DNA of 64,000 bases from Tautonia plasticadhaerens (GTDB lineage Bacteria; Planctomycetota; Planctomycetia; Isosphaerales; Isosphaeraceae): positions 4,588,001-4,652,000 of the forward strand of contig NZ_CP036426.1 in the NCBI RefSeq assembly GCF_007752535.1, in the 5' to 3' direction. Numbering within the stretch: the stretch's first letter is position 1; every line of letters starts with the position of its first letter. The position numbers were made by a program, and so were the translations under genes. This document shows, one piece after another, positions 51,810 through 64,000 of this stretch. The notes below the pieces were generated by a model. The model was not told the DNA's origin, searched no databases, and saw only the letters and a list, made by a program, of their open reading frames with translations.

Positions 51810-53066
51810 TCACTCGGGAGCCGGGGAGGAGCCGGGGAGGCCTGGGGTCTCGGGGGCGCCGACGGGACGCTCGATCTCGGCGTCCGGGTCTCCCTTTTGC
51901 TGCTCGTAGGCGCGGAGCTGCTCGACGGCCTTGGAGTCGGGGATCTCCTGGTCGGGCCTGGACATCCGGGCCCGGGAGACCTCCTCGTCGCGAACCGACG
52001 TCTCGGCCTGCTTGGAGCCGGAGTGCTTGACCTGGCCGGTGAGGTGGTTCTCGACGGACGACTGGAGGAACAGCTCCTCCATGACCGTCTGCATCTCGGC
52101 CTGGACCTTGGCCTCGTGGATCTGGGCCTTCATCTGGGCGACGATGGTCGGGTCGGCGCGGTCGACCTCCTGAGAGGGCTTGACCTCCTCGCGCTGGAAG
52201 ATCACCCAGGCGGCCTCGCTCACCTGGATCGGGCCCGTGAAGTCGCCGTCCTTGGGCTTGTGGGTGGGGTCGGAGTCGTTGGGGTCGCCGTCGACGAGCT
52301 GGGCGAAGGCGGCATCGGAGACCTGGAGCGGCTCGGCGTGTCGGCCGATCGGCTGGGCGAGCAGGCCGCCGATGGGGGCGGAGTCGGTGTCCATCGAGAG
52401 TTCCTGGGCGAGCTTGGCGAAGCCGCCGGGGTTCTCCCGGACCTTGTTCCAGACGTCCTTGGCCTTGGCCAGGGTGTCGACCAGGATCATCCGGACGACC
52501 AGCTTCTCGCCGAAGTAGGCCTCGAAGGCCTTGGAGACGTCCTCGTCGGTGACCTGCACGCGGGGCTCGGCCAGCTTGCGGAGGGCGACGCCGGGGAAGG
52601 CGATGTACTCGGCGTATTGCCGGGGGCTGAGGTTGCGCTCCTTGGCCAGGGCGCGGAGGAAGGCCTCGCGGTCGATGCCGGACCGGGCGGCGTTGCGGTC
52701 GATCTCGGCGTCGACCTCGGCGGCGGTGACGGAGAGGTCCTTGGCCTTGATCGCCTGGTCGAGCAGCGACCGCATGATCAGGGTCTCGAGCACCTCCAGG
52801 CCGTGCCGGGAGACGCACTCGTCGGCCAGCTTCCCCCGGGAGATGACCTGGCCGTTGACCACGGCGATCGGGTCGCCCGGGTTGGCCGGCACGGCCCGGA
52901 TGGAGAGCTGCGGGATCGGCCCGGCCGGCCCCTGGGCATTGCCCGGGACGCCGTCGTTGGCCTGCGTCTGCTGCTGCTGGGGGCGGGCCCGGGCCGTGCC
53001 CATCCCGAGCCCGACGACCACCGCGGCCAGCGCAACGAGGCGGCCGGTTCGGATCAGTTCGCCCAT
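51810..53066 (-). CDS. PpiC/SurA-type periplasmic peptidylprolyl isomerase
   Basis: 418 residues. A signal peptide (about 1-27, ending TARARPQ) precedes a Gln-rich mature start. The SurA/PrsA-like N-domain carries IAVVNGQVISRGKLADEC and LETLIMRSLLDQAIKAK. A rotamase region follows (about 190-310), with VRMILVDTLAKAKDVWNKV, FAKLAQELSMDTDSAPIGG and GDFTGPIQVSEAAWVIF. The charged C-terminus is low in complexity. The protein is predicted to chaperone or isomerise envelope proteins, possibly BamA substrates. The ATG at 53066 has an excellent AAGGAGGG Shine-Dalgarno. It is divergent from ggt, with 143 bp between the two starts. Confidence 0.88.
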   Translation of the reverse strand: MGELIRTGRLVALAAVVVGLGMGTARARPQQQQTQANDGVPGNAQGPAGPIPQLSIRAVPANPGDPIAVVNGQVISRGKLADECVSRHGLEVLETLIMRSLLDQAIKAKDLSVTAAEVDAEIDRNAARSGIDREAFLRALAKERNLSPRQYAEYIAFPGVALRKLAEPRVQVTDEDVSKAFEAYFGEKLVVRMILVDTLAKAKDVWNKVRENPGGFAKLAQELSMDTDSAPIGGLLAQPIGRHAEPLQVSDAAFAQLVDGDPNDSDPTHKPKDGDFTGPIQVSEAAWVIFQREEVKPSQEVDRADPTIVAQMKAQIHEAKVQAEMQTVMEELFLQSSVENHLTGQVKHSGSKQAETSVRDEEVSRARMSRPDQEIPDSKAVEQLRAYEQQKGDPDAEIERPVGAPETPGLPGSSPAPE

Positions 53067-53209
53067 TGTCGTCCCTCCTTGAACTCGTCGCGCCGGGGAA
53101 CTCCGATGGCGATCCGGCACGTTCCGGCCGATACCATAACGTTCGGGCCCGCGCGGTCAACGCCGATTCGGCGATCCTCGGGACCCGATCGCGTCCGGCC
53201 TCGGATCGA

Positions 53210-55051
53210 ATGGCCCTCATCTCGGAGACGATCGACGTGAGCAACCCTGCGGTGTCGGCGCCCCGCCCCTCCTCGCCCCCCCCCGGACCGGACGCTCCTC
53301 CCGCGCGACGACGGCCGATGCCACCCTGGTTCGCCCCGTCTGTCGCCTTGCTGGCGGTGGCCACCGGCCCGTCCTCGGCCGAGGAGTTCGCGACTTACGC
53401 GGTCGTCTCCCAGGAGTCCCACGCCTCGGACGTGGGCCGGGAGGTGCTCCGCAAGGGGGGCAACGCGATCGACTCGGCCGTGGCCACGGCCTTCGCCCTG
53501 GCGGTGACGCACCCGGCGGCGGGGAACATCGGCGGCGGGGGGTTCATCGTGGCCTTCGTCGCCGATCGGGGCGAGGTCGTCACCTATGACTTCCGGGAGC
53601 GGGCCCCCCGGGCCGCCACCGAGCGGACGTACCTGTCTCCCGAGGGCAGGCTCCTGCCCCGGTACCGCGCGGGCCTCTGGGCCGGGGGCGTGCCGGGGAC
53701 GGTGAGGGGGCTCGCCCTGGCCCACGAGCAGCTCGGGACGCTCGACTGGGCCGAGCTGGTCCGGCCGGCCGTCGATCTGGCCGAGCGGGGGTTCCCCGTC
53801 TCCGACACGCTGGCCCGGTCGCTCAATGCGCAATTGTTCGTGGACGACGGCGCCGCCGACCTGCTCGACGGCAGCGGCCGGGGCGCCCGGCTGGCCGACT
53901 TCCCCGCCTCCGTCGCCGCCTTCCGGAAGCCCGACGGCACCCCCTGGGTGGAAGGGGACGTCCTCCGGCAGCCGGACCTGGCCGCCACCCTCTCCCGGGT
54001 CGCCGAGGACGGCCCCGACGCCTTCTACGCCGGGGAGATCGCCGACCGGATCGCCGAGGCCATGCGGGCCGGGGGCGGCCTGATCTCGGAGGAGGACCTG
54101 GAGTCCTACGAGGCCGTCCGCCGGGCGCCGGTCCACGGCACCTTCCGGGGGTTCGACGTCTTCGGCATGGGCCCGCCCTCCTCGGGGGGGATCGTCACCG
54201 TGCTGATGCTCAACCTCCTGGAACGCTTCGACCTCGCCGCCGACGGCCCGGAGGACCCCGAGACCCTGCACCGGATCACCGAGGCCATGCGCCGGGCCTT
54301 CTTCGTCCGGGCCACCGAGATCGCCGACCCGGACTTCGTCGACGTGCCGGTCGACGAATTGACCTCGAAGGATTTCGCCGACGAGCTGGCCGGGTCGATC
54401 GGCCCGATCGCCACGCCGAGCGAGGACCTGGCCGACTTCCCGATCGCCGGGCTGGTGGCCGAGGGGACCGACACGACGCACCTCTCGGTCCTCGACGGCG
54501 ACGGCAACGCCGTGGCCCTGACCTACACGCTGGAGCAGGGCTACGGCTCCAAGGCGGTCGTCCCCGGGCTCGGATTCCTGCTCAACAATGAGATGGGGGA
54601 CTTCAACCTCGTGCCGGGCGTGACCAGCACCTCGGGCCTGATCGGCACGAGGCCGAACGTGATCGCCCCGGGCAAGCGGATGCTCAGCTCCATGTCGCCG
54701 ACGATCGTGCTGGAGGACGGCAAGGTCCGGCTCGTCACCGGCTCCCCCGGCGGCCGGACGATCCCGAACACGGTGCTCTGGGTCGTGCTCAACGTGCTGG
54801 AGTTCGGCCGGTCGCCCCGGGAGGCCGTCGACGCCCCCCGGTCGCACCACTCCTGGTTCCCCGACCGGCTGACCCTCGAAGGCGACTCCTGGCCCGAGGC
54901 CGCCATCCAGGGGCTCCGAGACCGGGGCCATCGCGTGCGATCGACCCCCCTGCAGGGGGACGCGCACTCGATCGTCGTCGACCCGGGGACGGGGATCATC
55001 CACGGGGTGAACGACCGCCGACGCAGCACGTCGAAGGCGTCCGGAGGCTGA
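53210..55051 (+). CDS. ggt: gamma-glutamyltranspeptidase
   Basis: 613 residues. An N-terminal signal region (hydrophobic FAPSVALLAVATGPSSA) lies after an RRR. The catalytic nucleophile is Thr422 (the first Thr of TTHLSV), where the precursor is cleaved. Conserved segments are GFLLNNEMGDF, LSSMSPTIV and GSPGG. Family markers NIGGGGFIV and FRERAP occur in the large subunit. The enzyme cleaves glutathione and gamma-glutamyl compounds outside the cytoplasm. The start is uncertain: ATG 53210 keeps the RRR, while ATG 53318 would begin just before the signal and give Thr386. The foldase gene is divergent. Confidence 0.93.
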   Translation: MALISETIDVSNPAVSAPRPSSPPPGPDAPPARRRPMPPWFAPSVALLAVATGPSSAEEFATYAVVSQESHASDVGREVLRKGGNAIDSAVATAFALAVTHPAAGNIGGGGFIVAFVADRGEVVTYDFRERAPRAATERTYLSPEGRLLPRYRAGLWAGGVPGTVRGLALAHEQLGTLDWAELVRPAVDLAERGFPVSDTLARSLNAQLFVDDGAADLLDGSGRGARLADFPASVAAFRKPDGTPWVEGDVLRQPDLAATLSRVAEDGPDAFYAGEIADRIAEAMRAGGGLISEEDLESYEAVRRAPVHGTFRGFDVFGMGPPSSGGIVTVLMLNLLERFDLAADGPEDPETLHRITEAMRRAFFVRATEIADPDFVDVPVDELTSKDFADELAGSIGPIATPSEDLADFPIAGLVAEGTDTTHLSVLDGDGNAVALTYTLEQGYGSKAVVPGLGFLLNNEMGDFNLVPGVTSTSGLIGTRPNVIAPGKRMLSSMSPTIVLEDGKVRLVTGSPGGRTIPNTVLWVVLNVLEFGRSPREAVDAPRSHHSWFPDRLTLEGDSWPEAAIQGLRDRGHRVRSTPLQGDAHSIVVDPGTGIIHGVNDRRRSTSKASGG

Positions 55052-55075
55052 TCGGGGCCCCCCCGGGGGCCCCGA
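55052..55075 (+). terminator. hairpin at the ggt stop
   Basis: An 11-bp stem (55052-55062 with 55065-55075) and a 2-nt loop, beginning at the base after the TGA. No U-tract. Likely the transcript end. Confidence 0.6.
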
Positions 55076-55103
55076 GGGCGAGATTCCCGCGAAAAACGCT
55101 GCC

Positions 55104-55138
55104 TTGGCGCTGTCTTTCGGCGATATTTCCTGTATATT
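55104..55138 (+). promoter_or_regulatory. possible promoter of the HU-like gene
   Basis: The AT-rich stretch at 55111-55140 contains TGTCTT, GATATTTCC and TATATT (55133-55138), about 120 nt before the start codon. TTGGCG at 55104-55109 is too far from TATATT for standard spacing. The AT-rich block is real, but the exact -35/-10 pair is uncertain. Confidence 0.3.
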
Positions 55139-55258
55139 TCGGGCCGGAGCGTCGATCTGGTTCCGCAGGAGCTACGTTCGAGCCTCCCCGCCGCGGGCCG
55201 AGGCCGAAGGGTGAGCTCTCGAGGACCGTCGATCATCGATCAGGAGGGGACGAGATCC

Positions 55259-55645
55259 ATGGCCGCGAAGAAAGCCGCCCCGAAGGCCGCCGCCGCCGCG
55301 AAGCCCGAGGCCAAGACCGCCAAGGTCCGGCCGATGACCAAGAACGAGCTCTACTCCACGCTCTCCGAGAAGACCGGCGTGGCCAAGAAGGACGTCGCCA
55401 GCCTCTTCGAGAACCTCGACGAGCTGGTCCGCACCTCGCTCACCAAGCGGGGCGGCCCCAAGCAGTTCGTCCTGCCGGGCCTCCTGAAGATCCGGCTCGC
55501 CGAGAAGAAGGCCACCCCCGCCAAGAAGGGGCGCAATCCCCAGACCGGCGAGATCATCAACATCCCGGCCAAGCCGAAGCGGAACACCGTCAAGGTCACC
55601 CCGCTGAAGGCCCTCAAGGACTCGGTCCTGACGGGCTCGAAGTAA
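55259..55645 (+). CDS. HU-like histone family DNA-binding protein
   Basis: 128 residues. An Ala/Lys-rich N-terminal extension (about 2-24, [21 protein letters not shown]) resembles histone-like tails and precedes the HU/IHF fold. That fold shows [27 protein letters not shown], then LPGLLKIRL and the DNA-binding-arm-like [15 protein letters not shown], ending [13 protein letters not shown]. The ATG at 55259 has AGGAGGGG at 55240-55247, so the longer frame from 55211 is not used. HU proteins bend and compact DNA. The basic tail suggests nucleoid condensation, as in other planctomycetes (inference). It is monocistronic and followed by a hairpin. Confidence 0.93.
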
Positions 55646-55656
55646 CGCAACCTCCG

Positions 55657-55691
55657 GCGGAGGAGGCGCCCCAGCGGCCCGCCTCCTCCGC
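55657..55691 (+). terminator. hairpin after the HU-like gene
   Basis: A perfect 12-bp stem (55657-55668 with 55680-55691) and an 11-nt loop, 11 nt after the stop codon. No U-tract. Confidence 0.7.
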
Positions 55692-55715
55692 GTCCCCGGC
55701 CGACGGACGCCCCCG

Positions 55716-56144
55716 ATGGACACCCCCGGATCCGCCACCGCCCCCGGCCTCACCGCCCGGCCCGGCCCCGGCGATCTCGTCCGACCCCGGGCCGAGGCCC
55801 CGACGGTCCCTCGCCCCTGCGGCCAGGGCACCCGACTGTTCACCTCCGAGGACGGCCCGCCGGCCAATCCCCACGTCACCTTCATCACCGACTCGGTCGG
55901 GCACGACCACGCCCGCCGCGCCGGGATGTACTCCATCCTCGAAGGGACCGGCGAGCCGGGGCTGAACGACAACGTCGTCGCCGTCGAGCCCGGCATGCTC
56001 GCGGTCATCGAGCCCGACACCGCCCATCGCCTCCGCCGCGAGCAGGGCGTCCGCACCCTCGTCCTCGGCAAACCCGCCTGGCACCCCGACGACGAGTCCT
56101 TCGACGATGACCGTGCCCCGGCCCGATCCCCCGACGCCTCCTGA
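55716..56144 (+). CDS. cupin-domain protein
   Basis: 142 residues. The central cupin fold carries [28 protein letters not shown], then [19 protein letters not shown]. The His residues in GHDH and TAHR and the Glu in the strand match cupin metal ligands. The flanks are Pro/Ala-rich. No close functional family can be named: cupins range from isomerases to binding proteins. The ATG at 55716 lies right after the HU hairpin. Codon use is like its neighbours. The 63 bp between its stop and tRNA-Leu carry no gene. Confidence 0.8.
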
Positions 56145-56207: not shown

Positions 56208-56292
56208 GCCGGCGTGGCGGAACGGCAGACGCAGGGGACTTAAAATCCCCCGGGGGGGAACCCCCGTGTGGGTTCGACTCCCACCGCCGGCA
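56208..56292 (+). tRNA. tRNA-Leu(UAA)
   Basis: An 85-nt cloverleaf. The 7-bp acceptor stem GCCGGCG/CGCCGGC (56208-56214 with 56285-56291) has discriminator A at 56292. The anticodon stem GGGGA/TCCCC surrounds loop CTTAAAA, with anticodon TAA at 56241-56243. The long variable arm is CGGGGGGGAACCCCCG, and the T-arm is GTGGGTTCGACTCCCAC. The long variable arm confirms a type II tRNA. CCA is not encoded. A decayed relative lies at 62956-63041 in the same orientation. Confidence 0.95.
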
Positions 56293-56779
56293 TTGCGACC
56301 CAGCCCGATAAAGAGACACCAAAGGCCGCCCGGCCAAGAGGTTTGCGTCGAGGCCTTTCGTCCGGGTGAGACGAAGCACCTCGCCAGCATCCGCCCCCGT
56401 ACGCCCTCTCACGTCTCCCGACTGCGACCCGCTTGCCGTCGGACGTTCGTGAACGTGTCGTTGCTTGGTCGACGCTGCCCGAGGCGGTGGAGGCCGACAT
56501 CCTGGCGATGGCCCGGGCCGCTCGCGGGTCGTGAGCCGCAGCACAGGACTGCCGGGGAACTGCACGACTCCGCTCGGTCCGATGTAAAATCATCGCCCTG
56601 GTGCACTTCCGGGGATGATCTTCCGGGATTTGCGGCGGCTCGTCATCATCGGCCAGGGGCCCTCCGGGGGCGATCGCTGGGCCGATATGGTAACCTGGCA
56701 CCCGACATCCAGGGCCGCGGTCTCTCTCCGATCCCGTCCCCCGGAGCGTGTCCCGCCGAGCCACACGGGACGAGGGTTG
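56293..56779. other. interval between tRNA-Leu and the GT4 gene
   Basis: About 487 bp containing the tRNA 3' flank, the possible decayed frame at 56370-56534 and the upstream region of the glycosyltransferase gene. No intact gene is seen. AT content rises near 56580-56620. Confidence 0.55.
56370..56534 (+). pseudogene. possible remnant of a small integrase-associated protein
   Basis: An open frame without start codon, 78 nt after the tRNA, encoding a tail RERVVAWSTLPEAVEADILA then MARAARGS and a stop. This ending resembles short planctomycete proteins of the DPxLAxVVxAWPxLPxxVRAxILAMVxAA type that often follow site-specific recombinase genes. An in-frame stop at 56367 and loss of the start suggest decay. 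The resemblance is from memory and unverified, so this is weak evidence of a former mobile element. Confidence 0.35.
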
Positions 56780-59053
56780 ATGGGCAACTCCGAGATCAAC
56801 AAGATCGCATTCGTCGGCGACTACCTGCCCCGCAAGTGCGGGATCGCCACCTTCACGCACGACATGTACGCCTCGGTCGCGGCCCATAACCCGGACGCCG
56901 AGTGCTTCGTCGTGCCGGTCAACGACCGCCCCGAGGGATACGACTACCCGCCGGAAGTCCGATTCGAGATCGACGAGCAGGACCTGGAGAGCTATCTCCG
57001 GGCGGCCGACTTCCTGAATTTCGCGAACACCGACATCGTCTGCCTCCAGCACGAGTACGGGATCTATGGCGGCCCGGCCGGCAGCCACGTCCTCGGCCTG
57101 CTGCGGGACCTGCGGATGCCGGTCGTCACGACCTTCCACACCGTCCTGCGCGAGCCGGACGCCGACCAGCGTCGGGTCCTGATGCAACTGGCCGACCTCT
57201 CGGCCCGCGTCGTGGTCATGACCCGCCGCGCCCGTGCATTCCTGCGGGAGATCTACGGCGTCCCCGTTGACAAGGTCGACCTGATCGCGCACGGCATCCC
57301 CGACACGCCATTCGTCGAGCCGGATCTGTTCAAGGTGCAGTTCGGCGTCGAGGGACGGCCGGTGGCGCTGACGTTCGGCCTGCTCTCGCCCAACAAGGGC
57401 GTCGAGCACATGCTCCGGGCCATGCCTGCGCTGCTGGGAGAGTTCCCGGATCTCGTCTACATCATCCTGGGGGCGACCCACCCGGACCTGGTCCGCCAGC
57501 AGGGCGAACGCTATCGACTCGGCCTGGAGCGGCTGGCGAGGTCGCTGGGGATCGAGAAGAACGTCACCTTCTACAACCGGTTCGTCGAGCTGGACCAGCT
57601 GACCGAGTTCATCCGGGCGGCCGACGTCTACGTGACCCCGTACCTCAACCCGGCGCAGATCACCTCGGGGACGCTGGCCTACTCGTTCGGCTGCGGCAAG
57701 GCGATCGTCTCGACGCCGTACTGGCATGCCGAGGAACTCCTCGCCGACGGCCTCGGGATCCTGGTGCCGTTCGCCGACCCGCAGGCCCTGGCCCGGGAGA
57801 TCGGCGGGCTGCTGCGCGACGCGGGGCGGCGGCGGGCGATGAGTCATACGGCCTACGGGCTCGGCCGCGAGATGGTCTGGGGGCGGTCCGCCCACCATTA
57901 CACGGAGTCGTTCCAGCGGGCACGCCTCGGTCGCCAGGCCCAACCGCCCCGGCCGCTGGCGGTCCGGACCCTGGCCGAGCAGCGGGCCGAGCTGCCCGAC
58001 TGGCGGCTCGACCACCTCGCGCGGCTGACCGACTCGACGGGCATCTTCCAGCACGCCACCTACACGATCCCGAGCTTCGCGGACGGCTACTGCACGGACG
58101 ACAACGCCCGCGCCCTGTTGCTGACCGTGCTCCTGGGGGAGGTGGGCCAGGATGGGCCGGTAGTCCGGCGCGTCGCCACGGCCTCGGCGGCGTTCCTCCA
58201 GGCGGCCTTCGATCGCGACCGGGGGCGATTCCGGAACTTCATGGGCATCGACCGCCGCTGGCTGGAGGAGGTCGGGTCGGAGGATTGCCAGGGGCGTGCC
58301 ATCTGGGCGCTGGGGACGTGCGTGGGCCGGTCCCATCGGACCGACATGCCGTCCTGGGCCGCGTCCTACTTCGAGCTGGCCCTGCCGTGCGTCCCGGAGA
58401 TGTCCTCGCCCCGGGCCTGGGCGTTCGGCCTGCTCGGCGTCCAGGAATACCTCCGCCGGTTCGGCGGGGACCGGGCCACCGGGCAGGCCCGCGACGCGTT
58501 GACGGGGCTGCTGGTCGGGCTCCATGAGCGGACTGCCACGCCCGACTGGCCCTGGTTCGAGGAGGTCCTGGCCTACGACAACGCCCGGCTGCCGCACGCC
58601 CTCATCGCCGTCGGGCGGGACGGGGGGGACGCGCGGGCGATGGAGATCGGCCTGGAGGCACTGGGATGGCTGGTCGGGGTGCAACGTGCGCCCCAGGGCC
58701 ACTTCCGGGCGATCGGCTGCCATGGGTTCTACCCCAAGGGCCGGGAGCCGGCCCGGTTCGACCAGCAACCGATCGAGGCCAATGCGACGGTGGCCGCCTG
58801 CCTCGAGGCGTACCGGGCGACGCAGGACCCCCGCTGGCTGGACGAGGCCCGATCCGCCTTCGAGTGGTTCCTCGGCCGCAACGACCTCGGCCAGGATCTC
58901 TACGACCCCGCAACCGGGGGCTGCTGCGACGGGCTCCAGGAGGACCGGGTCAACCGGAACCAGGGGGCCGAGTCGACCCTCGCGTTCCTGCTCTCGCTCG
59001 CCGAGATGAACCGGCTGGAAAGTTCCCTGGTCGCGTTCCGCCAGGTGCGGTAG
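56780..59053 (+). CDS. GT4-type glycosyltransferase fused to an alpha/alpha-barrel domain
   Basis: 757 residues. The N-terminal half (about 1-385) is a GT-B, GT4-like glycosyltransferase: KCGIATFTHDMY near the start, LQHEYGIYGG, TFHTVL, HGIPD, LLSPNKGVEHML, ILGATHPD and TSGTLAYSFGCGKAIVSTPYWHAEELL (nucleotide-sugar site). The C-terminal half (about 400-757) is a helix-rich domain of (alpha/alpha)6 type with YCTDDNARALL and CQGRAIWALGTCVG repeats, resembling glycoside-processing barrels. The donor and acceptor are unknown. It stands 59 nt ahead of a GH130 gene, so they may act on the same oligosaccharide. The ATG at 56780 was chosen for the family start. Confidence 0.9.
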   Translation: MGNSEINKIAFVGDYLPRKCGIATFTHDMYASVAAHNPDAECFVVPVNDRPEGYDYPPEVRFEIDEQDLESYLRAADFLNFANTDIVCLQHEYGIYGGPAGSHVLGLLRDLRMPVVTTFHTVLREPDADQRRVLMQLADLSARVVVMTRRARAFLREIYGVPVDKVDLIAHGIPDTPFVEPDLFKVQFGVEGRPVALTFGLLSPNKGVEHMLRAMPALLGEFPDLVYIILGATHPDLVRQQGERYRLGLERLARSLGIEKNVTFYNRFVELDQLTEFIRAADVYVTPYLNPAQITSGTLAYSFGCGKAIVSTPYWHAEELLADGLGILVPFADPQALAREIGGLLRDAGRRRAMSHTAYGLGREMVWGRSAHHYTESFQRARLGRQAQPPRPLAVRTLAEQRAELPDWRLDHLARLTDSTGIFQHATYTIPSFADGYCTDDNARALLLTVLLGEVGQDGPVVRRVATASAAFLQAAFDRDRGRFRNFMGIDRRWLEEVGSEDCQGRAIWALGTCVGRSHRTDMPSWAASYFELALPCVPEMSSPRAWAFGLLGVQEYLRRFGGDRATGQARDALTGLLVGLHERTATPDWPWFEEVLAYDNARLPHALIAVGRDGGDARAMEIGLEALGWLVGVQRAPQGHFRAIGCHGFYPKGREPARFDQQPIEANATVAACLEAYRATQDPRWLDEARSAFEWFLGRNDLGQDLYDPATGGCCDGLQEDRVNRNQGAESTLAFLLSLAEMNRLESSLVAFRQVR

Positions 59054-59111
59054 TGTCGGGCCTCCCAGGGACGGGTCGCTCCCCCTCGCAGCGAGGTCGC
59101 TAGTCTCCCCC

Positions 59112-60563
59112 ATGGATGTTCATCGCACCGGGATCGTCCTCAAGCCGACCAATTCGCGGGTCGTCATGAGGCCGTTCGAACCCACGAGCGAGCACCGGTT
59201 CGAGAAGATCATCGCCCGCGTCTCGTCCCTGTCCGAGCCGGAGGTCGACTCCCTGCTCGAGGGCGTGATGCGGGAGTTCCGCGGGCGGCACCAGCGGACC
59301 CGCGAATTCTTCCTGCATCGCTTCGACCAGGTGCGGCATCACCTGCACACCGACCGGTCGATCGGCGAGGCCCGTCGCCTGCTGATTGGCTCCTATTTCA
59401 GCCAGGAGTACGCGCTGGAATCGGCCGCCCTGTTCAACCCGTCGATGATCTGGCACCCCGACCAGTCGGGCCTGCCCGACGGGTCCCGCCGGTTCATCCT
59501 CAGCCTGCGGGCCACCGGCGAGGGGCATATCTCCTCGATCACCTTCCGCTCCGGCGTGATCGACGCCGGGAACCGGATCCGCATGGACGAGCCGACCCGG
59601 TTCGTCACGGCCCCGGACCTCGTGCCCAACGCCCTCTACGACACGCACCTTTTCGACCTCAAGCTGACCGAGCTGGGCATCAACGGCACGCTGACCGGAC
59701 AGGTGATCGCCGCCCTGGGCGACCGGTTTACGCTCGCCGAGCTGGAGCAGACGATCCGCAACGTCCTGCGGCACAATCGGGCCCGCCAGCGCGAGTTCGA
59801 GCCGATCGCCCACACCATGGTGACGCTGGCGAAGGCCAACTACGAGATCCGCTTCGAGGCGGAGATGGACGTCTCGGAACGGATCATCTTCCCGTCGTCT
59901 CCCGCCGAGACCAACGGGATCGAGGACGCCCGCTTCGTCCATTTCACCCACGACGACGGCAGGACCTGCTACTACGCCACCTATACCGCGTATGACGGCC
60001 GGGTCGTCCTGCCCCAGATGCTCGAGACCGAGGACTTCCTCCACTTCAAGGTGAGCACCCTGAACGGGCCGGAGGTCCGGAACAAGGGGTTCGCCCTCTT
60101 CCCGCGGCGCGTCAACGGCCAGTTCGCGATGCTCTCGAGGCAGGACAACGAGAACATCTACCTGATGTACTCCGACATGCCGCACTTCTGGTTCACCAAG
60201 GAGCTGATCGCCAGGCCGACGTACCCCTGGGAGTTCGTCCAGCTGGGCAACTGCGGCTCGCCGATCGAGACCGAGGCCGGCTGGCTCGTGCTGACCCACG
60301 GGGTCGGGGCGATGCGGAAGTATGCCATGGGCGCCTTCCTCCTCGACCTCGACGACCCCTCCCGCGTGATCGGGCGGCTGGAGGCACCCCTGCTGGAGCC
60401 GAACGAGAACGAGCGCGAGGGCTACGTCCCGAACGTCGTCTACAGCTGCGGGGCCGCCCTGCACGGCCGCGAACTCATCATCCCCTACGCCATGTCCGAC
60501 TACGCGAGCACGTTCGCCACCGTCCCGCTCGACGACGTGCTGGGGGCGATGACCCGCGCCTGA
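59112..60563 (+). CDS. GH130 family protein, long form
   Basis: 483 residues. An N-terminal region of about 200 residues (KPTNSRVVMRPFEP, helical) precedes a five-bladed propeller typical of GH130. The GIEDARFVHF segment matches the family's conserved ED-P/A-R motif around the proposed catalytic acid. Other blades carry YYATYTAYDGR, NKGFALFPRRVNGQFAML and WLVLTHGVGAMRKYAMGAFLLDL. GH130 enzymes are mannoside phosphorylases or beta-1,2-mannosidases, and the substrate here cannot be told. It follows the GT gene by 58 nt, suggesting an operon, and converges on a second GH130 gene only 9 nt away. Confidence 0.9.
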   Translation: MDVHRTGIVLKPTNSRVVMRPFEPTSEHRFEKIIARVSSLSEPEVDSLLEGVMREFRGRHQRTREFFLHRFDQVRHHLHTDRSIGEARRLLIGSYFSQEYALESAALFNPSMIWHPDQSGLPDGSRRFILSLRATGEGHISSITFRSGVIDAGNRIRMDEPTRFVTAPDLVPNALYDTHLFDLKLTELGINGTLTGQVIAALGDRFTLAELEQTIRNVLRHNRARQREFEPIAHTMVTLAKANYEIRFEAEMDVSERIIFPSSPAETNGIEDARFVHFTHDDGRTCYYATYTAYDGRVVLPQMLETEDFLHFKVSTLNGPEVRNKGFALFPRRVNGQFAMLSRQDNENIYLMYSDMPHFWFTKELIARPTYPWEFVQLGNCGSPIETEAGWLVLTHGVGAMRKYAMGAFLLDLDDPSRVIGRLEAPLLEPNENEREGYVPNVVYSCGAALHGRELIIPYAMSDYASTFATVPLDDVLGAMTRA

Positions 60564-60572
60564 CTCGATCGA

Positions 60573-61643
60573 TCACCCCGGGGCGACCATCGCCCAGAGC
60601 AGCTCCTCCAGCGAGAATTCCGCGACCGCCGAACAGGTGTCGGCGGCACCGTAATAGACGAGCAGGCGGTCGTCGTCCCGGACCACTCCGGTCGGGAAGA
60701 CGACCTCCGGCACGAAGCCGAGGACCTCGAACTCGGCCTCGGGCTCGAAGAACGGCCACGCCGTCCGACGGATCACCCGGGTCGGGTCGTCCAGGTCCAA
60801 CAGGGCCGCGCCCCCGCAATAGGCACCGACCTCCCCCGGCCGGACGGGACGGCGGTTGCCGTGGTAGATCTCCAGCCAGCCCCCTTCGACCCGGATCGGC
60901 GGCGCCCCCGCCCCGACCCGTCCCGCCTGCCAGTCGCCCCCCGAAAGATCCAGCGGGGCGTGCCCTCCCCAGTGGATCAGGTCGGGCGACCGCGCGACCC
61001 ACATCTCGGGCCTTGTGAACGGGGTCCCGCAGACCGGCCGGTGCAGTGCCGCGAACGAGCCGGCGACTTGCTCCGGGAAGAGGACCACGTCCTTGTTCTC
61101 GGGACAGAAGACGATCCCGTGCCGCTCGAACGACCGGAAATCGGCCGTCGAGGCCAGGGCCGTCGCCGGCCCGTGCCGCGAGACGGCCACGTAGGTCACG
61201 TAGAATCGGCCCGCGATCGGGGTGATCCGGGGGTCCTCGACCCCGTACTCCTCCGCCTCCCCCTCCGGACGGAACGTGACGTCGAGGACAGTCCTCGCGG
61301 TGCGACCGCTCCGGCCGCAGAGGACGACCCGCAAGTGGGACGTGAACGTGAGCCGGACGACCCCGTCGGCCTTGCGCCGGACCACCCTCGGGTCGATCGG
61401 CTCCCAGTCCGAGTCGGGGACCCAGTCGATCCTCAGCCCTTCGGCCGGCTCCCACCTCGGCAGGCCGATGAACCCCGGACGCCGCTCCCGAGGGCGCTCG
61501 GCCACCCGAGCGAGCATCACGACCTCGTCGCCGACCCGGCATGCGCCGGGGTTGAAGGCGCCGACGACCTCGAAGTCGTCTCGGGTCGCGGGCACGTCGC
61601 CGGGTTCGAGCAGGATCCGGGTCGACCGCCGACGGGTATTCAT
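60573..61643 (-). CDS. GH130 family protein, short form
   Basis: 356 residues, the usual length of the family. Blade motifs: FNPGACRVGDEVVMLARVAER, EEYGVEDPRITPIAGRFYVTYVAVS (catalytic-acid segment), KDVVLFPEQVAGSFAALHRP, GAGAPPIRVEGGWLEIYHGN and CGGAALLDLDDPTRVI. Activity is predicted on beta-mannosides by phosphorolysis or hydrolysis. The ATG at 61643 overlaps the stop of the oxidoreductase gene (ATGA, 61640-61643), so these two are translationally coupled. It differs strongly from the plus-strand GH130 and so is not a recent duplicate. Confidence 0.92.
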   Translation of the reverse strand: MNTRRRSTRILLEPGDVPATRDDFEVVGAFNPGACRVGDEVVMLARVAERPRERRPGFIGLPRWEPAEGLRIDWVPDSDWEPIDPRVVRRKADGVVRLTFTSHLRVVLCGRSGRTARTVLDVTFRPEGEAEEYGVEDPRITPIAGRFYVTYVAVSRHGPATALASTADFRSFERHGIVFCPENKDVVLFPEQVAGSFAALHRPVCGTPFTRPEMWVARSPDLIHWGGHAPLDLSGGDWQAGRVGAGAPPIRVEGGWLEIYHGNRRPVRPGEVGAYCGGAALLDLDDPTRVIRRTAWPFFEPEAEFEVLGFVPEVVFPTGVVRDDDRLLVYYGAADTCSAVAEFSLEELLWAMVAPG

Positions 61644-62767
61644 CGGTGGACCCCATTCTGATGGGCCATCGCGTCGGCCTCGCAGGCGACCGCGAGCGAT
61701 TCCCGGCCGTTCGACTCGGTGACCACGCGGCGGTGAGTCCGGTCCCGGAGCCAGGCCACCTGGTCTCCCATCATCGCGCGGAGCAGCCGGCAGTAGAGGG
61801 GAGACTTCGACTGGCCGTCCCCGGACGCGAGCTCGATCACCTGTGAGGCGTCGATCGCCTTGCCCCGGCCCCGACATTCGCGGTCCTTGCCGCCGAAAGA
61901 GGCGTCGACGTCGATCCTGGCCCCGGGGAAGAGGCCGCAGAGGTCGCGCGTCTGCCGCTCATCCACGAGCGCCCGGATCCGGACTCGCGTCGGCACCCAG
62001 TCGTAAAGGGTCAGGTCGCCGCGCTCGAAGACGAGCCGGAGTTCCTGGCGATCCATCCGCCCGACCTGGTGGAAGCCGTGGTAGAAGTCGACCAGGGCCG
62101 AGTCGCCGTAGCGGACCGTGCAGTGGACGTGCTCCTCGATCGCGGTCCCGGGCCGGACCCCGACCTGCGCCGACTCGAGTCGGCCGGCCCCGAGCCATCC
62201 CTCGAAGAGGTCGAAGAAGTGGACGCCATGCTCCACGAAGATGCCGCCGCTCCTGGTCCGGTCCCAGAACCAGTGCCCCTCCGGCAGGTTCTCGTCCGAG
62301 GCATAATTCTCGAACGACCCGCGCAGCACCTCGCCGAGCACCCGGCCCTCGACCAGCCGCCTCACGGCGTCGAAGAGGGGGTTGTACCGCTGCATCAGGT
62401 TGGTGACGAGCAGGAGATCGCGCGACCGGGCGACGGCGATCAGCTCGTCGGCCTGGCCGACGGTCATGGCCAGCGGCTTCTCGACGATCACGTGCTTGCC
62501 GGCCTCCAGCGCGGCCAGCGCCTGATCGTGGTGGAGGAATGGCGGGGTGGCGATGTAGACGACGTCGAGGTCGCCCCGGCCGAGGAACGCGCCGAGGTCA
62601 TCGGTGTTCTCGACCCCGAAGCGGGAGGCCGCGGCGAGCGAAGCGGGCCGGTGAGTGGCCGCCATGCCGACGAGCCCGACCCCGGGCACCTGCGTGAATT
62701 GCTGGAGCGCGAACAGGCCGAAACCGCCGCAGCCGATCACCCCCAATCCGATGCGATCATCGTCCAC
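61640..62767 (-). CDS. Gfo/Idh/MocA-family oxidoreductase
   Basis: 375 residues from the GTG at 62767. The Rossmann motif GVIGCGGFGLFALQQF is near the N-terminus, followed by DVVYIATPPFLHHDQALAALEAGKHVIVEKPLAM with the family EKP lysine, and the C-terminal sheet domain (GHWFWDRTRSGGIFVEHGVHFFDLF). It is probably an NAD(P)-dependent sugar dehydrogenase/epimerase or an NAD-dependent glycoside-processing enzyme. The GTG start has GGA 5-7 nt upstream. An ATG at 62863 would add 32 residues that look non-conserved. It is coupled to the GH130 gene by a 4-nt overlap, which suggests action on the same sugar. Confidence 0.88.
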   Translation of the reverse strand: MDDDRIGLGVIGCGGFGLFALQQFTQVPGVGLVGMAATHRPASLAAASRFGVENTDDLGAFLGRGDLDVVYIATPPFLHHDQALAALEAGKHVIVEKPLAMTVGQADELIAVARSRDLLLVTNLMQRYNPLFDAVRRLVEGRVLGEVLRGSFENYASDENLPEGHWFWDRTRSGGIFVEHGVHFFDLFEGWLGAGRLESAQVGVRPGTAIEEHVHCTVRYGDSALVDFYHGFHQVGRMDRQELRLVFERGDLTLYDWVPTRVRIRALVDERQTRDLCGLFPGARIDVDASFGGKDRECRGRGKAIDASQVIELASGDGQSKSPLYCRLLRAMMGDQVAWLRDRTHRRVVTESNGRESLAVACEADAMAHQNGVHR

Positions 62768-62955
62768 GGGCTTCCGTCCTCGGGGCTGGGGGGTTCGGGC
62801 GGCCGCGGGACTTCCTGCATCCGCCTCGCTCCGGGAGATGCCGGACCGCTGCCCATTATACATGGGGAGGAGGTGAAGGGCTCGAATCCGAAGTGCAAGC
62901 GACTTTTCGGCTCGAGCCGCGTCGGCGGGCTCGATCTCCCGGGCGATTGAACCAC

Positions 62956-63041
62956 CCAAGAGTGGACTTGGTCAGACGCTTTCACTACTTAATATCCCCC
63001 GGGGTCGAACCCCGATGTGGGTTCGACCCCCACCTCCGGCA
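62956..63041 (+). pseudogene. decayed tRNA-Leu
   Basis: Relative of the tRNA-Leu at 56208-56292. The anticodon-loop word ACTTAATATCCCC, the long variable arm CGGGGTCGAACCCCG, the T-arm GTGGGTTCGACCCCCAC and the acceptor 3' end CTCCGGCA are kept. D-arm remnants TGG and CAGACGC are also visible. The 5' acceptor strand (CCAAGAG) no longer pairs with CTCCGGC, and the anticodon stem is lost. It is therefore not a functional tRNA. It may be the 3' tRNA fragment of an old attachment site. Confidence 0.75.
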
Positions 63042-63690: not shown

Positions 63691-64000
63691 TCAGTCGTCG
63701 ACGGCCTCGCCCGAGGGTGGGGGTCGGCCGACGAGGCGGAGTTCCCCGAGGTTCGAGGCGTCCAGGTATCTCAGCCCGTGGTACTCCGGGAACCACGAGA
63801 GCCAGGCGGAGCGTTCGGCCACCGGCTCGGACTGGGGGGCGTCGGTGGTGGCGGGGGCGTCCTTGTCGGCGACGGCCACGTCGAGGCCGATGCGGACGCC
63901 GGGGACGAGGTCGGTCGGCCGGTCGGGATAGCGGTCGTAGGGCCGGACCGCCCACTCGTAGGTGGTCAGCCCGCCGGAGCGACGGGACGCCATCCGGGAG
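63691..64000 (-). CDS. carbohydrate-binding (CBM9-like) domain, N-terminus beyond the window
   Basis: The last ~102 residues of a leftward gene. TTYEWAVRPYDRYPDRPTD, then PGVRIGLDVAVADKDAP and a final LGELRLVGRPP are a typical CBM9/DOMON-type beta-sandwich ending. An ATG at 63993 exists, but the frame stays open to the window edge and the domain is incomplete at its start, so the true start is probably outside. Such domains usually sit at the end of larger secreted proteins. Confidence 0.6.
   Translation of the reverse strand, partial: SRMASRRSGGLTTYEWAVRPYDRYPDRPTDLVPGVRIGLDVAVADKDAPATTDAPQSEPVAERSAWLSWFPEYHGLRYLDASNLGELRLVGRPPPSGEAVDD

Follow-up and report, generated by a model that had tools for sequence, protein, structure and literature searches.

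The window studied here is a stretch of 64,000 nucleotides of Tautonia plasticadhaerens, positions C1:4588001-4652000 of a genome of 9.4 Mb in 6 contigs (G000 in our sample). An intact tRNA-Leu(UAA) gene lies at 56208-56292 and a truncated copy of it, hereafter the relic, at 62987-63041. Directly behind the intact gene stands a short module (56293-56534), and between module and relic there is a cassette of four genes coding for a GT4 protein, two GH130 proteins and a Gfo/Idh/MocA oxidoreductase. We give a probability of roughly 0.6 to the reading in which 56208-63041 is the decayed remnant of one tRNA-targeted integrative element, with the tRNA and the relic as its two limits. We propose it because of the truncated copy, the module behind the intact tRNA and the recombinases behind the orthologous tRNA in relatives, and also because the cassette is patchy: its GH130 and Gfo genes were not found in the congeners, and its proteins are closer between families than rpoB is.

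The tRNA gene and its relic

Genomic islands, prophages and integrative elements use the 3' ends of tRNA genes as attachment sites. The candidate for the left site, attL, is the gene at 56208-56292 on the forward strand, the single tRNA that ARAGORN and Rfam find in the window (RF00005, 56.3 bits). The candidate for the right site, attR, is the relic at 62987-63041, also on the forward strand, which matches nucleotides 31-85 of the tRNA at 87% identity (E 1.4e-12). The interval thus opens with a complete tRNA gene and closes with a truncated repeat of its 3' part in direct orientation. Searching the whole genome with tRNA-Leu(UAA) at E <= 1 yields 8 matches: the gene itself, the tRNA-Leu(CAA) gene at C1:6429732, the relic, and five matches of 20-22 nucleotides. 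The relic is the sole such copy of the genome besides the tRNA-Leu(CAA) gene. Without gaps, relic and tRNA are identical at 48 of 55 positions; the best stretch in 60 kb of other DNA of the same genome reaches 30 of 55.

An earlier note on this DNA, made from its letters, had described the intact tRNA-Leu(UAA) and a tRNA-Leu relic in the same orientation, and ARAGORN, Rfam, the genome search and the ungapped comparison all confirm the pair. The note also gave the relic a ruined 5' half, and here we disagree with it. The 45 nucleotides immediately before the anticodon-loop sequence of the relic are no more similar to the 5' half of this tRNA than chance would give: 75% of 2000 random 45-mers of the genome score as high. 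We therefore reject the idea that a complete tRNA gene once stood here and lost its 5' half by decay; the likeliest reading of the relic is that tRNA-Leu(UAA) was copied in its 3' half only.

The same tRNA in related genomes

A search for tRNA-Leu(UAA) at E <= 1e-6 in 40 genomes, including that of T. plasticadhaerens, finds it in 39. Besides the latter, the genus and family are represented by 24 genomes, among them the congeners G001, G002 and G003. Five of these 24 relatives (G003, G009, G011, G016 and G023) hold a partial tRNA-Leu(UAA) beside a full-length copy; in alignment, the partial copies begin at nucleotides 11-25 and reach the 3' end of the tRNA. The partial copy is on the contig and strand of the tRNA in G003 and G011, at 3.9 and 121 kb downstream, and on another contig in G009 and G016; G023 has three partial copies, two of which follow one another at 25.5 and 49 kb downstream, the other being at a different place. 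A motif shared by the 5' flank of the relic and the partial copies is weak, with random fractions (2000 45-mers, uncorrected) of 0.96 for G003, 0.016 for G009, 0.69 for G011 and 0.066 for G016.

Recombinases were sought as matches to PF00589 at E <= 1e-5. One family of them begins about 100 nucleotides behind tRNA-Leu(UAA) in 4 of the 24 relatives: G009, where the gene is interrupted by stops, G011, G016, whose protein matches the integrase phrog_1, and G023. The same family also occurs behind tRNA-Leu genes of other anticodons, in G010, G017 and G023. Because relatives have partial 3' copies of this tRNA and recombinases behind it, tRNA-Leu(UAA) is a repeated integration site in the family, used by related elements.

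Three loci bear on the range of such structures. In G023, the stretch C1:1212838-1261859 consists of two segments in line behind tRNA-Leu(UAA), of 25.5 and 23 kb, each closed by a partial copy of the tRNA; recombinase genes, or pieces of such genes, lie at 1260388, 1235423 and 1213321. In G011, some 121 kb (C5:3003706-3125297) extend from tRNA-Leu(UAA) and its recombinase to the partial copy, and are possibly a large integrative element. In T. plasticadhaerens itself, a recombinase at C1:1993683-1994984 is 58% identical to the tRNA-Leu family; the DNA just upstream of it resembles, by eye, a partial tRNA-Leu(CAG), at a place where ARAGORN finds no tRNA.

A module behind the tRNA

The module at 56293-56534, on the forward strand, is made of an arm of about 150 nucleotides with decayed repeats, followed by the tail of a short open reading frame (ORF). 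We call it a class 1 end module. A class 1 profile, built from nine other sense copies with the one of the window left out, matches 56299-56524 directly behind the 3' end of the tRNA at E 4e-25, and the next match in the window has E 0.27. The best part of the tail is 56436-56522 (E 7.0e-13), and its stop codon is 56532-56534. The 230 nucleotides behind the tRNA are 67% identical to the stretch behind the tRNA of G001. In better-kept copies the arm carries paired direct repeats of about 7-10 nucleotides, and the tail is a conserved stretch of about 30 residues with the consensus DPDLAEVxxAWPxLPEAVRAGILAMVRA.

Such modules follow tRNA genes for a range of amino acids and also accompany truncated copies of tRNAs. 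With the ORF tail of G007 as query, nine genomes give 35 matches, of which the one in the window is the third weakest (E 0.002). Nine of the 35 tails follow an intact tRNA of their own orientation at a distance of 143-178 nucleotides (three Leu, three Arg, and one each of Ser, Met and Cys), and two more lie behind a tRNA in the opposite orientation. A T-arm consensus is present 85-215 nucleotides upstream of 26 tails, in sense for 9 and antisense for 17, and absent for the other 9; its background is 315 of 20000 random windows, taken from the fetched loci and hence from DNA that already has many tRNA genes. In a wider search with an alignment of 21 rows, the tail is present in 31 of 59 genomes, including the present one, at E <= 0.001. 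Against Pfam, the 21 members give nothing significant (best E 0.019), and one member each searched against PHROGs and NCBIfam gives no match.

Two plainer accounts of the module were tried and rejected. It could be an ordinary host flank, since the gene that precedes it in G000 and G001 is the intact tRNA and in G003 the partial copy; we drop this account because homologous stretches lie behind other tRNA genes of G000. The short ORF could also be the C-terminus of a neighbouring recombinase, but PF00589 occurs within 3 kb of only 2 of the 35 tails, both in G023.

A parallel is found at another tRNA of the same genome. A class 1 module lies behind the tRNA-Arg gene at C1:5448136, and 16.1 kb downstream there is a partial tRNA-Arg of 58 nucleotides (93% identity) with a class 2 module reading inward. 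This region, C1:5432019-5448210, has a tRNA or partial copy and a module at each end, and contains no PF00589 match at E <= 1e-5. It resembles the window in its intact tRNA with a class 1 module, its truncated copy downstream and the lack of PF00589 between them; what sets it apart is a class 2 module at its far end, together with a terminase-small-subunit-like gene behind the near module, both absent from the window. Such a gene follows the module at tRNA-Arg and again at tRNA-Met: behind tRNA-Met and its module, C1:3273902-3275264 holds a row of three small genes, all similar to the small subunit of phage terminases (phrog_4102, E 4.2e-27 to 9.2e-6).

From its repeated placement we infer that the module would be the end of an integrative element. 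A stronger statement, to which we give an even chance, is that these form a kind of end module of planctomycete integrative elements, itself apparently not described before, which reads inward at both ends of one region of 16 kb, and that the stretch behind the tRNA of the window belongs to it. In the openly accessible literature, without subscription journals and preprints, none of the papers listed describes the module in its title or the start of its abstract, and a search for integrative elements and their attachment sites in Planctomycetes yields no paper.

The glycan cassette

The GT4 gene (56780-59053, forward strand) encodes 757 amino acids from the start that we chose at 56780, in a frame open from 56615. 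Its GT4 domains, PF13692 (1.2e-18), PF00534 (1.3e-17) and PF13439 (1e-8), cover residues 57-359; the C-terminal extension, residues 360-757, matches no Pfam family, and its sequence matches in the PDB are weak (best E 2.1e-6 over 85 residues). The first GH130 gene, GH130a (59112-60563, forward strand, 483 amino acids), has PF04041 at 2e-30 and 106.3 bits. The second, GH130b (60573-61643, reverse strand, 356 amino acids), is convergent with it and has PF04041 at 8.4e-49 and 166.7 bits; both are above the curated cut-off of 26. The Gfo/Idh/MocA gene (61640-62767, reverse strand) encodes 375 amino acids from a GTG at 62767 and has PF01408 at 2e-26. The earlier note had named these same four genes, and its gene content stands, except that the barrel it saw in the GT4 fusion finds no confirmation over residues 360-757.

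The nearest solved relatives are mostly beta-1,2-mannoside phosphorylases and synthases, the best one for GH130b being Lin0857 (5b0p, E 2.4e-71). Both proteins miss the equivalog cut-offs for beta-1,2-mannobiose phosphorylase: against the 550 of NF050092 and the 450 of NF052550, GH130b scores 322.6 and 179.9, and GH130a 137.2 and 137.8. We would guess, by analogy with a Thermoanaerobacter cluster (PMC4264767), that the cassette makes or salvages a mannose-containing glycan. That cluster, Teth514_1785-1796, has in common with the window two GH130 genes and a GT4 gene; it has of its own an ABC transporter, a GH5, a mannose-1-phosphate guanylyltransferase and a single direction of transcription, while the window has the Gfo/Idh/MocA gene, the large GT4 extension and a convergent layout. 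The parts of PMC5352709 at hand count 2, 4, 0 and 2 GH130 genes in four genomes of Isosphaeraceae, so that two per genome is usual; they do not describe the four-gene cassette or the tRNA site.

A full-length relative of GH130a is present in 16 of the 40 genomes, and the Gfo protein in 9 of the 40 at E <= 1e-40, the present genome being included in both counts. All four genes stand together, convergent as in the window, in G007, G009, G011, G012, G016, G017 and G039, with extra DNA between the genes in G007 and G011. In the three congeners the first GH130 gene is absent at E <= 0.001, and so is the Gfo gene at E <= 1e-40; GT4 was not searched genome-wide.

The comparison with G039, a member of another family, gives 71.4% identity for rpoB, and 80.7, 76.0, 78.9 and 73.7% for GH130a, GT4, Gfo and GH130b. 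In the tree of the first GH130, a quick one without bootstrap, G036 and G039 group with G005, G017 and G024 with a support of 96 in the Shimodaira-Hasegawa-like approximate likelihood ratio test (SH-aLRT), while rpoB, from sequences picked with a motif check, sets G036 and G039 apart at 100. Because the cassette proteins are closer between families than rpoB, and because the GH130 tree conflicts with the rpoB tree, the cassette looks horizontally transferred.

Flanking regions

To the left of the tRNA, at 53066-56144 on the forward strand, are three genes that belong to a conserved neighbourhood: a putative gamma-glutamyltransferase-like gene, then an HU-like DNA-binding gene and a cupin gene. 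The domains HU and cupin are recognised, cupin below its curated cut-off. Homologues of the three precede tRNA-Leu(UAA), similarly ordered, in G002, G003 and G022, and those of the first two do so in G001 and G017. On this side G002 and G003 keep the gene order, with gaps, for at least 42 kb, and G001 keeps it for about 4 kb; the shared order ends at the tRNA or just past it.

Beyond the tRNA, the homology of G002 to G003 picks up again 187 nucleotides behind the gene. Between the tRNA and the same genes, G003 has an insert of 3.9 kb, its partial tRNA copy and 1.5 kb more DNA; G002 is without the insert. At E <= 1e-5 the insert is free of PF00589, and a comparison of four of its ORFs with PHROGs brings up no integrase. 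It offers a case, in a close relative, of the sort of event proposed here, likewise without recombinase.

To the right of the relic, the stretch from 63042 to the end of the window at 64000, and on to C1:4660247, has no synteny to G002 and G003. Single genes of these 9.2 kb have relatives elsewhere in the congeners. At 63691-64000 and beyond, the reverse strand encodes a protein of 906 amino acids with, by eye, a sigma-factor-like start and a repeated C-terminal part; similar stretches are found at C1:2463055 and C1:2472164.

Weighing the explanations

If the locus is the remnant of one integrative element, its history may have been as follows. An element that brought along a 3' half of tRNA-Leu(UAA) would have recombined with the chromosomal gene by means of a tyrosine recombinase; the gene would have stayed complete on the left, and the right junction would have been marked by a further 3' half. 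Module and relic would then be two ends of one element, the recombinase and the right end module would have been lost later, and the GT4/GH130/GH130/Gfo cassette would be the surviving cargo. That the cassette was the original cargo is plausible, with about even odds.

Several observations weigh against this history. Synteny on the right with G002 and G003 begins only at C1:4660247, 9.2 kb past the relic, and on contigs other than the one with tRNA-Leu; G001 aligns from the same point, but its contig begins there, which makes it uninformative on the junction. An empty site, with the right flank joined to the tRNA-Leu, is not seen in G002 or G003, and the contig of G001 ends. A foreign composition, common but not obligatory in such elements, is not what the block shows: its GC content is ordinary for the genome, and the codon scores of the four cassette genes, ranked among 90 mechanically chosen ORFs of G000, fall at percentiles 0.74, 0.86, 0.36 and 0.52, which is native. 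PF00589 is absent between tRNA and relic at E <= 1e-5. Nor does a class 2 module stand beside the relic, where the profile finds the tRNA part only, at E 1.1. In G001 the module occurs without a relic and without the GH130 and Gfo genes of the cassette. Fourteen cassette loci fetched from other genomes (6 to 20 kb) contain no tRNA, and no end module at E <= 0.01; in the genomes examined, module, relic and cassette are nowhere else seen together.

The earlier note had proposed an old, stripped island. The absence of an integrase, on which it relied, is borne out. The comparison with relatives that it asked for gives single tRNA-Leu(UAA) genes without the block in G001 and G002, but no right flank joined to them to confirm an insertion, and codon usage, its other proposed check, speaks against an atypical island. 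In favour of its proposal we can count the recurrent site, the form of the relic, the end module and the absence of the GH130 and Gfo genes from the congeners; the missing empty site, the native composition and the occurrence of the cassette without tRNA or module count against it. Because right synteny resumes 9.2 kb past the relic and on other contigs, the unshared stretch is 16 kb long and the neighbourhood is rearranged. The best available explanation is an old element that decayed in a rearranged region, which falls short of a demonstrated insertion of this very block.

The strongest competitor, unlikely in our view but a serious one, is a graveyard of successive elements on the 3' side of the tRNA-Leu. 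Module and relic would come from different insertions, the cassette would have arrived separately by horizontal transfer or rearrangement, and the bracket around it would be partly accidental. Tandem copies do occur at this tRNA in G023, and the module behind the partial copy of G003 indicates that layers do pile up; the module of G001 without relic or cassette genes, and the cassettes elsewhere without nearby tRNA or module, fit as well. However, the cassette takes up nearly all of the DNA from module to relic: only about 250 nucleotides are left next to the former and about 220 next to the latter. The relic, moreover, has diverged by 13% from the tRNA, which is in range if it has the age of the module, itself differing by 32% between G000 and G001, though this is a rough argument.

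Much less probable is a chromosomal rearrangement that made the relic as a by-product, with no element at all. The tRNA is indeed a synteny breakpoint: synteny on the left stops there, and on the right it starts 16 kb further on, where the congeners have it on other contigs. But a rearrangement would have to produce a 3'-half copy like those of recombinase-bearing relatives, and to leave an end module directly behind the tRNA. As for an ancestral gene order in which the relic would be what decay left of another tRNA-Leu gene, we hold it very improbable despite the wide distribution of the cassette in the family, given that 0 of the 14 fetched cassette loci have a tRNA, that the relic's 5' side is not tRNA-like, that among the congeners a second partial copy exists only in G003, bounding a different insert, and that the same block with both tRNA copies, which the earlier note would have taken as a sign of ancestral order, is not seen in distant relatives.

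Discussion

Set beside islands known at tRNA sites, the proposed remnant shares the intact tRNA, the truncated 3' copy in the same orientation and the tyrosine-family recombinases behind the same tRNA in relatives; it differs from them in having no recombinase left, no empty site found, a native composition, and an end module whose short ORF lacks a significant Pfam match. The kind of event is thus ordinary, and the more novel point is the end module, which recurs beside other tRNA genes in related bacteria.

For this family of planctomycetes, comparison shows one tRNA-Leu gene as a recurrent integration site, and a stripped element would still be recognisable by its end module after the loss of its recombinase. 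If the modules are indeed a kind of element end, they would mark dead and living elements that have no recognisable recombinase, and tRNA-anchored islands, including this glycan cassette, would be traceable across the class. Should the module hold up, it would help to follow mobile DNA through the large genomes of planctomycetes, and to see how a glycan cassette of mannoside type, patchy in its distribution, passes from one lineage to another.

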